Positions 790-43,161 of a stretch of 64,000 bases of DNA are shown in pieces. The DNA is taken from contig CALXSY010000009.1 of NCBI GenBank assembly GCA_944391285.1, forward strand, positions 1 through 64,000, in the 5' to 3' direction. The DNA comes from an uncultured Clostridia bacterium (GTDB lineage Bacteria; Bacillota; Peptococcia; Peptococcales; Peptococcaceae). Each line of letters starts with the position of its first letter. Positions within the stretch are counted from its first letter, which is position 1. The notes below the pieces were generated by a model, which saw only the letters and a program-made list of their open reading frames with translations, did not search any database and had not been told where the DNA came from. Both the position numbers and the translations under genes were made by a program.

Positions 790-818
790 GCAGGAATTAC
801 CAAAAAACTGACGAAATA
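790..818 (+). promoter_or_regulatory. Sigma-H-like promoter with overlapping 0A-box-like site upstream of spo0A
   Basis: GCAGGAATT (790-798) matches the sigma-H -35 consensus RnAGGAwWW exactly. After an 11-base spacer, GACGAAATA (810-818) matches RnnGAATww except at one base. TGACGAA (809-815) also fits the 0A-box pattern TGNCGAA. In Bacillus the spo0A gene has a sigma-H promoter and 0A boxes, so the position is as expected. Transcription would begin near 825. This is a consensus match by eye, not a measured promoter. Confidence 0.55.
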
Positions 819-867
819 GTAAAATATGGTAAACAACCGTAGAAATTTTCGTTTGGGGGAAAAAAAT

Positions 868-1647
868 ATGATTAAAGTGTTGTTGGCTGATGAAGAAAAA
901 GAGTTTAATGAGATTTTAAGCGGATATTTGCGCAAAGAGAGCGATATGTCTATTGTGGGCATGACAGATGACGGCAAAGAAGCCTTAAATTTAGTTGAAA
1001 AACAAAAACCGGACGTGGTTGTTTTAGGGTCAATCATGCCGAGATTGGATGGTTTGGGAGTTTTGGAGCGAATCAATCGCATGGAGAAAAAGCCAAAGGT
1101 TATCATGCTGACCAGCATTCGCAGTGCATATTATGTTCAGCGCGCCTTTGATAACCAAGCTACCGATGTTTTGCTTAAACCTTTTGATGTGCAGGCTTTA
1201 GTCGGGCGAATCCGTTCGGCATCAGAGCATGAGCTGCCCAGCGAAATTACTGCGGCTGCCGGTCAGCTTATAACGCAAGCACCGCAGGAAAGAGATTATG
1301 AGCTGGAGGTTACGGAGGTTTTGCATCAGATGGGAATTCCGGCTCATGTAAAAGGTTATCAATATTTAAGAGACGCTATCCTCTATATTATGGACGATAT
1401 CAATCTTTTAGGAGCAGTAACGAAGGAGCTTTATCCCTTGGTAGCAGAAAAATACAATACTTCCGCCAGCCGGGTGGAAAGAGCTATTCGTCATGCTATT
1501 GAGCTGGCGTGGAGCCGGGGCAATGTGGATATGATGATTCAATATTTCGGCTACACCATCAACACCGAAAAAGGAAAGCCTACCAATAGCGAATTTATCG
1601 CGATGGTCGCCGATAAAATCAGATTGTCGATGAAAAAGAAATATTAA
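868..1647 (+). CDS. spo0A: Sporulation response regulator Spo0A, phosphoacceptor Asp replaced by Gly
   Basis: A 259-residue protein with a receiver domain (about 1-125), a linker and the Spo0A-specific C-terminal DNA-binding domain (about 145-259). The C-terminal domain holds the hallmark [20 protein letters not shown] recognition-helix region. Spo0A is the master regulator of entry into sporulation and is normally activated by phosphorylation of one Asp (D56 in B. subtilis). Here that position is Gly54 (VVVLGSIMP, codon ggg), while the acidic pocket (Asp8, Glu9), Thr82 and Lys104 remain. Start 868 is preferred over an in-frame ATG at 826 because GGGGGA precedes it, Spo0A proteins begin here, and the likely transcription start is near 825. 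Usual neighbour spoIVB is not upstream. Confidence 0.93.
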
Positions 1648-42304: not shown

Positions 42305-42316
42305 ATATCCATAATA

Positions 42317-42437
42317 ATCTTCAGGGCAGGGTGAGAGTCCCTACCGGCGGTGATCTTCTGAGGAAGCAAGTCCGCGAGCCTTTTGGCCGAATCGGTGAGA
42401 ATCCGATACCGACAGTAAAGTCTGGATGAGAGAAGAT
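42317..42437 (+). ncRNA. FMN riboswitch (RFN element)
   Basis: The conserved RFN blocks are all present in order: AGGGCAGGGTGAGAGTCCCT, ACCGGCGGTGAT, AAGTCCGCGAGCC, GGCCGAATCGGTGAGAATCC, ACCGACAGTAAAGTCTGGAT and the closing GAGAGAAGAT that pairs with ATCTTC at the 5' end. FMN binding should favour the downstream terminator and lower expression of the riboflavin transporter gene. GAAGAT (42432-42437) can also pair with ATTCTTC (42466-42472), a possible alternative fold. Confidence 0.97.
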
Positions 42438-42481
42438 AAAATGTAATACAATTGGCTTTGTATTTATTCTTCGCTTGTAAG

Positions 42482-42511: not shown

Positions 42512-42573
42512 TTGCCTCTGCAAAATCTTGTGGGTAATGAGCAAATGGCTCGCCCTATTTGGAGGTATGTTTT

Positions 42574-43161
42574 ATGCAGAAAAAATTTTTTTCAACCAAG
42601 AATTTGGCTATGATGGCCATCTTAGCAGCAGTAGGAGCAGTGTTGATGTTTTTTGAGGTTCCGTTGCCCTTTGCGCCGTACTTTTACGAAATCGATTTCA
42701 GCGAAGTGCCTATTTTAATCGGTTCGTTTATTATGGGACCAGTTGCAGGAGTTGTCATGGAGTTTGTCAAAATTATGTTAAAGCTAGCGTTAAAAGGTAC
42801 TTGGACCTTTGGCGTCGGCGATTTGGGCAATTTCTTGATCGGCTGTTCCTTCATCGTACCGGCATCAATCGTTTACCGCCGGCTGAAGAACAAAAAAGGT
42901 ATGCTTATCGGCTGCATTTGTGGCGGTTTAAGTATGGTAGTGATCGGCGCATTTCTTAATTATTTTTTGCTTTTGCCCTTTTATGCTCAGTTTATGCCTA
43001 TCGAACAAATTATTGAATTAGGTGCATCGGTTAACGCTTTTGTTTATGATATGAAGAGCTTAGTGCTCTGGGCTGTAGTGCCGTTCAATGCCTTGAAGAG
43101 CTTATTGGTCAGCATTTTAGTTATTTTGCTTTACAAACGGCTCAGCCGGGTAATTAGTTAG
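42574..43161 (+). CDS. ribU: ECF transporter substrate-binding component for riboflavin, RibU
   Basis: A 195-residue hydrophobic protein with about six membrane segments, of the RibU S-component family. It begins with the positively charged KKFFSTKNLAMMAILAAVGAVLMFFEVPLPFAP, and FYEIDFSEVPILIGSFIMGP is typical. It captures riboflavin and works with a shared EcfAA'T module encoded elsewhere. The FMN riboswitch upstream strongly supports the substrate. ATG 42574 follows GGAGG (42561-42565). Confidence 0.95.
   Translation: MQKKFFSTKNLAMMAILAAVGAVLMFFEVPLPFAPYFYEIDFSEVPILIGSFIMGPVAGVVMEFVKIMLKLALKGTWTFGVGDLGNFLIGCSFIVPASIVYRRLKNKKGMLIGCICGGLSMVVIGAFLNYFLLLPFYAQFMPIEQIIELGASVNAFVYDMKSLVLWAVVPFNALKSLLVSILVILLYKRLSRVIS

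Follow-up and report, generated by a model that had tools for sequence, protein, structure and literature searches.

The window, a stretch of 64,000 nucleotides of bacterial DNA, encodes a Spo0A protein in which the phosphorylated Asp of the receiver domain is replaced by Gly, and this is the sole Spo0A found in the genome. By its profile matches and alignment, the protein is a true Spo0A ortholog turned into an aspartate-less (pseudo-receiver) regulator. Across the Firmicutes, the phosphorylation of Spo0A is regarded as the step at which endospore formation is decided. With the phospho-Asp absent, phosphorylation in the usual way is impossible. Moreover, because the sole Spo0A lacks its Asp and has kept the DNA-binding half, the switch must either act unphosphorylated or have ceased to trigger sporulation.

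Identity and copy number of spo0A

spo0A occupies positions 868-1647 of the window on the forward strand, with the stop codon at 1645-1647, and translates into 259 amino acids. A ribosome-binding-site-like GGGGG at 855-859 (+) precedes the ATG at 868, and for this reason the start at 868 was favoured over an in-frame ATG at 826. The protein passed the TIGR02875 (spore_0_A) model with 329 bits (cut-off 200) over residues 2-256, and matched PF00072 (receiver) with 84.3 bits (cut-off 30.2) and PF08769 (Spo0A_C) with 150.9 bits. The receiver domain, residues 2-117, extends over positions 871-1218 (+), and the Spo0A_C DNA-binding domain, residues 148-251, over positions 1309-1620 (+). The genome comprises 1.70 Mb in 36 contigs and its completeness is rated 100%. 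Searches of the whole genome with the PF08769 and TIGR02875 profiles returned one match each, both to the window spo0A. A normal second Spo0A elsewhere in the genome was looked for with these profiles and not found, and the preliminary description, which had named another intact Spo0A as evidence that would speak against it, stands on this point.

The phosphorylation site and the receiver pocket

Codon 54 (positions 1027-1029, +) reads GGG, and sequence and alignment place the encoded Gly at the site of the phosphorylated Asp (Asp56 in B. subtilis numbering). The preliminary description was right about the Gly; it had pointed to positions 1028-1033, and the codon is in fact at 1027-1029. It had also stated that two bases separate this codon from one for Asp, which agrees with the GAC present in the sister genome (G001). 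The acidic pair, the Thr/Ser and the Lys of the phosphorylation pocket are all kept (Asp8, Glu9, Thr82 and Lys104), as had been described, and the recognition region was likewise confirmed as intact by the PF08769 match and by the absence of rare residues (defined below) in residues 148-251.

The same receiver also carries changes that the preliminary description had not mentioned, Val101 being the foremost. Codon 55 (TCA, positions 1030-1032, +) encodes Ser, a residue used at this place by <1% of the other rows of the survey alignment described below; these 181 rows mostly have Ile, Leu or Met (110, 31 and 26, respectively). Codon 101 (GTT, positions 1168-1170, +) encodes Val at the place three residues before the conserved Lys, the aromatic switch. 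Over 182 rows this place is occupied by Tyr (112), Phe (59), Cys (9) or Val (2), and is thus aromatic in 171. Place 97 is Gln; 172 of the remaining 181 rows have Gly there. The receiver therefore lacks both the phospho-accepting Asp and the aromatic switch, yet is still recognised by PF00072. The core of the earlier reading, namely that phosphorylation at the usual place is lost and the DNA-binding half is intact, is supported and strengthened. Two other response regulators of the same genome that were read (L027 and L037) keep the Asp.

The receiver is predicted still to fold. All receiver strands and helices were present in the predicted structure, with block pLDDT values of 82-95 except for 69 at residues 81-90 (whole-protein pTM 0.50; eight sequences in the alignment). 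The K+2 residue is Phe (KPF). Phe at this position is reported, in the text available of PMC12632262, to bias CheY toward the inactive state, and simple constitutive activation of the window Spo0A is mildly disfavoured on this ground.

Survey of place 54 in the family and phylum

Thirteen genomes of the family were searched, and nine full-length Spo0A proteins besides that of the window were read at place 54; all nine have Asp. In G004, Spo0A lies in pieces and the receiver piece has Asp. A Spo0A frame of this genome (L070, on G004:C94) seemingly carries ~100 extra receiver residues between places ~92 and ~97 in one open frame that is cut by the contig end. Profile searches gave no Spo0A match in G002 and G012.

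Of 398 genomes drawn from the phylum, 342 had a Spo0A match, and a non-random sample of these was read. The sample consisted of 74 weak-match genomes picked by eye and further loci chosen from the match lists, to which order-level loci and seven loci from named MAGs were added. The survey, weighted toward weak matches, covered 195 loci and yielded 182 distinct full-length proteins. Rows with too little of the receiver or output domain were excluded; those among them that showed place 54 all had Asp. Over the 182 rows, place 54 is Asp in 178, Glu in two, Gln in one and Gly in one, the last being the window protein. The other three exceptions, L204 (Glu, in G406), L210 (Glu, in G232) and L215 (Gln, in G368), are second copies in genomes that also have an Asp-bearing Spo0A (L186, L170 and L175, respectively), and possibly represent a group of pseudo-receiver Spo0A paralogs. 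Because these three sit beside an Asp-bearing Spo0A, the window protein is the only sampled case of a genome's sole Spo0A without the Asp. A scan for closer relatives among viral contigs gave none.

Unequal divergence of the two domains

We defined a residue as rare when it is used by <2% of the other rows at a place with one majority residue. By this count the window Spo0A has 12 rare residues (places 10, 14, 19, 33, 54, 55, 85, 96, 97, 99, 101 and 117), every one of them in the receiver; its DNA-binding domain is free of them. The medians over the 182 rows are 2 for the receiver and 1 for the DNA-binding domain. At least as many rare receiver residues occur in 21 of the 182 rows, the window included, so fast receiver evolution alone is not unique. 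Six of the 20 other such rows have no rare residue in the DNA-binding domain, and all six keep the Asp. So does the sister G001, whose counts for the two domains are 8 and 0. The receiver profile score of the window protein ranks 29th from the bottom of the 182 rows: low, though not extreme.

In a tree of 17 Spo0A proteins, the window protein paired with that of G001 (support 90). The receiver of the window protein is 40-47% identical to those of the 16 others. It shares 42% identity with the receiver of G001, whereas the DNA-binding domains (residues 145-255) of the two proteins are 90% identical. Sixteen further pairs have DNA-binding domains that share at least 86% identity, and their receivers are 68-91% identical. 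On a fixed tree, the ratio of receiver to DNA-binding domain distance is 13.4 for the window and G001, more than for any other pair, although G011 and G010 come close with 13.3 at small distances; the median is 2.6 over the 105 pairs without the window or G001. Tip lengths of the window protein and its sister are 1.18 versus 0.50 in the receiver and 0.106 versus 0.020 in the DNA-binding domain. Since the window tip is the longer one in both domains, the DNA-binding domain is strongly constrained, not frozen.

Sequence elements upstream of spo0A

A sigmaH-like promoter, GCAGGAATT-N11-GACGAAA, is located at positions 790-816 (+), one base off the sigmaH consensus. Matches with one mismatch occur three times in the window over both strands, including the one at spo0A. 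Upstream of spo0A in G001 the -35 element is identical and the -10 element is full (AGCGAAT); the pattern was not found upstream of the eight other family spo0A genes scanned. In the genome of the window, spoIIAA is preceded by a full sigmaH-like match. Based on the sigmaH-like promoters upstream of spo0A, in the window and in the sister, and of spoIIAA, transcriptional control of spo0A by sigmaH is plausibly kept.

Seven upstream stretches (1,652 bp in total) contained five 0A-box-like sites with one mismatch and no exact site, with about three expected at the window rate of 0.46 per 250 bp. Two of the five overlap a sigmaH -10 element. As the sites were not above chance, 0A boxes were dropped as a sign that Spo0A still activates its targets. 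No Spo0E was found in the genome. Its absence is weak evidence for a loss of phosphorylation, since Spo0E is present in only 4 of the 13 family genomes and none was found in the other nine.

Sporulation genes kept in the genome

The sporulation genes searched for were sigH/F/E/G/K, spoIIA, spoIIE, spoIIGA, spoIVA and spoIVB. Nine of them, spoIIAA, spoIIAB, sigF, spoIIGA, sigE, sigG, spoIIE, spoIVA and sigH, have open frames of full or near full length. SpoIVA (736 bits, cut-off 460), SpoIIAB (159, cut-off 135) and SigH (301, cut-off 295) passed their models, as did SigK (309, cut-off 299) before the rejoining described below. The SpoIVA score is in line with the 734-751 bits of the eight further family genomes that matched. 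SigE, SigF and SigG passed one model each and missed the other slightly (329, 310 and 446 bits against 349, 321 and 457, respectively). Scores below cut-off were obtained for SpoIIE (240 against 491), SpoIIGA (114 against 210) and SpoIIAA (91 against 115). The SpoIIE cut-off is reached by none of the 13 family genomes (462 bits in G001), and spoIIE is a 747-residue frame that keeps the phosphatase motifs.

Thus, spoIIE, spoIIGA, sigE, sigF and sigG, which the preliminary description had proposed to look for, are all present, some below model cut-offs. Its suggestion of a lineage that has lost sporulation is not supported in the strong sense, because the early and middle genes searched for (sigH, spoIIAA-AB-sigF, spoIIE, spoIIGA-sigE, sigG and spoIVA) and a recombinase-split sigK are present. 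With the spoIVB 3' end missing and several scores below cut-off, a loss of function is still possible.

Separate from the sporulation sigma factors, a SigB/SigF-like sigma factor is encoded on contig C3 (L059, 8028-9157), with a frame directly upstream that by eye is RsbW-like. The window itself contains an FMN riboswitch at positions 42313-42441 (+; 119.5 bits), and after it, at 42559-43161, comes a frame for a small membrane protein.

A split sigK and a shortened spoIVB

sigK is split by a skin-like element of 6,739 bp on contig C8 (12619-19358; from L309 12619 to L063 5359). The 5' piece ends with SYVSRHA, where relatives continue with SYVSRIEKRAL. Contig C8 also carries the missing end, VSRIEKKAIEKLRSQYE, at a distance of 6.7 kb and next to a large serine recombinase. 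Both junctions share the core GTATC, and joining them restores an unbroken SigK of 222 residues. The recombinase frame (C8:12636-14210) contains Resolvase, Recombinase and Zn-ribbon domains and spans 524 residues from stop to stop; the first Met is at about residue 83 and the start codon is unsettled. The initial idea that a truncated sigK meant dead sporulation was dropped once the 3' piece had been found next to the recombinase. By its layout, the arrangement is skin-like: it has in common with the skin element of sigK the split gene, the large serine recombinase, the short shared core and the in-frame rejoining. It differs in its insertion close to the 3' end of sigK, its length of 6.7 kb and its other cargo, by comparison with published skin elements, in part through abstracts. 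In three order relatives (G013:C29, G016:C14 and G018:C22; L294, L292 and L293, respectively) only an N-terminal sigK piece was found, reaching model position 117-142 of 227. This suggests that sigK-splitting elements, inserted further upstream, may be present in these genomes too.

The frame of spoIVB stops after GAVTYVFVSP, and ~20 conserved C-terminal codons of its relatives are missing. The gene lies at the end of contig C10 (L306 1468-2670; L314 776-1978 and 2178-2522), followed by a RepA_N-type replication gene and then the contig end. A split like that of sigK was considered and failed: the tail was found neither in the stretches scanned nor by a genome-wide pattern allowing up to 2 mismatches, a pattern that demands the given motif and that a diverged or out-of-assembly tail could escape.

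Relatives without sporulation genes and genome size

Two members of the same family, G002 (98% complete) and G012 (87%), are without Spo0A, SpoIVA and SigE/SigK together, an apparent loss of sporulation judged from gene content. SpoIVA gave no match in G009 (80% complete) and G011 (68%). The order relative G014 (98% complete) gave no match for Spo0A although it has SigE (with one stop) and SigK, so Spo0A and the later genes are not always found together. Unlike G002, G012 or G014, the genome of the window has both Spo0A and the sporulation genes searched for.

According to the portions available of a 2012 compilation (PMC3533761), the smallest genome among the listed cultured spore-formers is 2.3 Mb, with the uncultured Arthromitus spore-formers of 1.5-1.6 Mb named as a smaller exception. 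The same source counts 30 apparently non-spore-forming genomes that encode Spo0A.

Possible roles of an aspartate-less Spo0A

As the phosphate acceptor and the switch are lost and the DNA-binding domain is constrained, Spo0A most simply works, at some level, in the unphosphorylated state. Binding to 0A boxes would need no aspartyl phosphorylation. The output would depend on how much protein is made, with a sigmaH-type promoter retained, and perhaps also on a partner protein. In that case kinase signalling would have given way to synthesis and the binding of a partner as the control over sporulation entry or over a different Spo0A regulon. Some aspartate-less or pseudo-receiver regulators are thought to be set in this way, by amount or by a partner, in the accessible text of two reports (PMC12632262; PMC4395418). 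We give an aspartate-less Spo0A that works without phosphorylation and is set by amount or partner close to an even chance. The more specific proposal of a spore-former whose sole pseudo-receiver Spo0A is freed from the His-Asp phosphorelay, with entry set by sigmaH-driven amount or a partner, is possible but less likely than not. That this Spo0A still launches sporulation is favoured by the open frames and the joinable sigK; that it serves another regulon while sporulation fades is favoured by the 3' loss of spoIVB, the scores below cut-off and the small genome. In B. subtilis, loss of Asp56 blocks sporulation, which also counts against a Spo0A that works unphosphorylated.

Entry into sporulation may instead be lost or fading, with the receiver drifting under relaxed selection, the DNA-binding domain kept for a non-sporulation role such as repression in growing cells, and the sporulation genes persisting as unbroken relics. 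Gly54 and Val101 would abolish the known activation, the spoIVB 3' end is gone next to a RepA_N gene, and SpoIIE, SpoIIGA and SpoIIAA score well under their cut-offs. The genome size of 1.70 Mb, the lack of a detected Spo0E (a feature shared with most of the family), the absence of Spo0A, SpoIVA and SigE/SigK from G002 and G012, and the apparent non-spore-formers with Spo0A (PMC3533761) point the same way. However, nine sporulation genes have uninterrupted frames of full or nearly full length, the SpoIVA score is on par with those of its relatives, the two pieces of sigK can be joined in frame across the recombinase element, and the receiver changes are too numerous for a very recent event. 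We regard such a loss as quite possible, though short of an even chance.

The remaining explanations carry far less weight. Phosphorylation at another residue, either the new Ser55 or one of the pocket acids (Asp8, Glu9 and Glu10), would fit with the rarity of Ser55 at its place and with the retention of Thr82, Lys104 and two acidic residues; it is nevertheless improbable, because with the aromatic switch gone too a phosphoryl group would be without its usual residue to move. The receiver could have turned into a small-molecule- or protein-binding domain that places Spo0A under ligand control, as proposed for some aspartate-less regulators. The rare residues cluster at 54-55, 85 and 96-101, which in receiver structures are the phosphorylation pocket and the alpha4-beta5 side; relaxed selection yields the same picture, and we consider ligand control very improbable. 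A sequencing or assembly error at codon 54 is conceivable in a draft of 36 contigs, but the codon is two bases away from that of the sister, the frame is unbroken, and the receiver has unusual residues at place 55 and at ten others. Since these eleven places are unusual and the DNA-binding domain has none by the same count, error was rejected as the whole story and is very improbable. A read error or a dead gene is thus an unlikely account of the window spo0A.

If a Spo0A working without phosphorylation is the correct reading, the sporulation decision can be moved to another layer, with the phosphorylation site gone and the downstream sigma factors kept. Alternatively, a loss of sporulation would have been caught beginning at its trigger. 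The presence of spo0A alone can mislead when genomes are scored as spore-formers.

Comparison with known systems

Aspartate-less receivers are already known; a sole Spo0A of this kind alongside sporulation sigma factors appears to be new. In the sections available of a 2015 survey (PMC4395418), Gly accounts for 11% of phospho-Asp substitutions and no structure is given for a Gly-bearing case. No description of an aspartate-less Spo0A was found in the accessible parts of this survey or of PMC12632262, and the word Spo0A is absent from the main text of the latter. Searches of the open-access literature, judged by abstracts and excerpts, brought up no Spo0A without its Asp. A study of remodelling, in the text available, tracks changes in the kinases and relay proteins upstream of Spo0A (PMC6136694).

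The window protein shares with ChxR, HP1043 and RitR, as these are presented in the available text of PMC4395418 and PMC12632262, a predicted receiver fold, a replaced phospho-Asp and a DNA-binding output. The second-copy proteins L204, L210 and L215 likewise combine a Spo0A_C output with a phospho-Asp replaced by Glu or Gln, but they sit beside an Asp-bearing Spo0A, whereas the window protein stands alone. With canonical Spo0A of B. subtilis and the Clostridia (TIGR02875), the window protein has in common the full-length two-domain match, the recognition region, the single copy and the sigmaH-like promoter. It differs from canonical Spo0A in lacking the phospho-Asp and the aromatic switch, and in a receiver of 40-47% identity.
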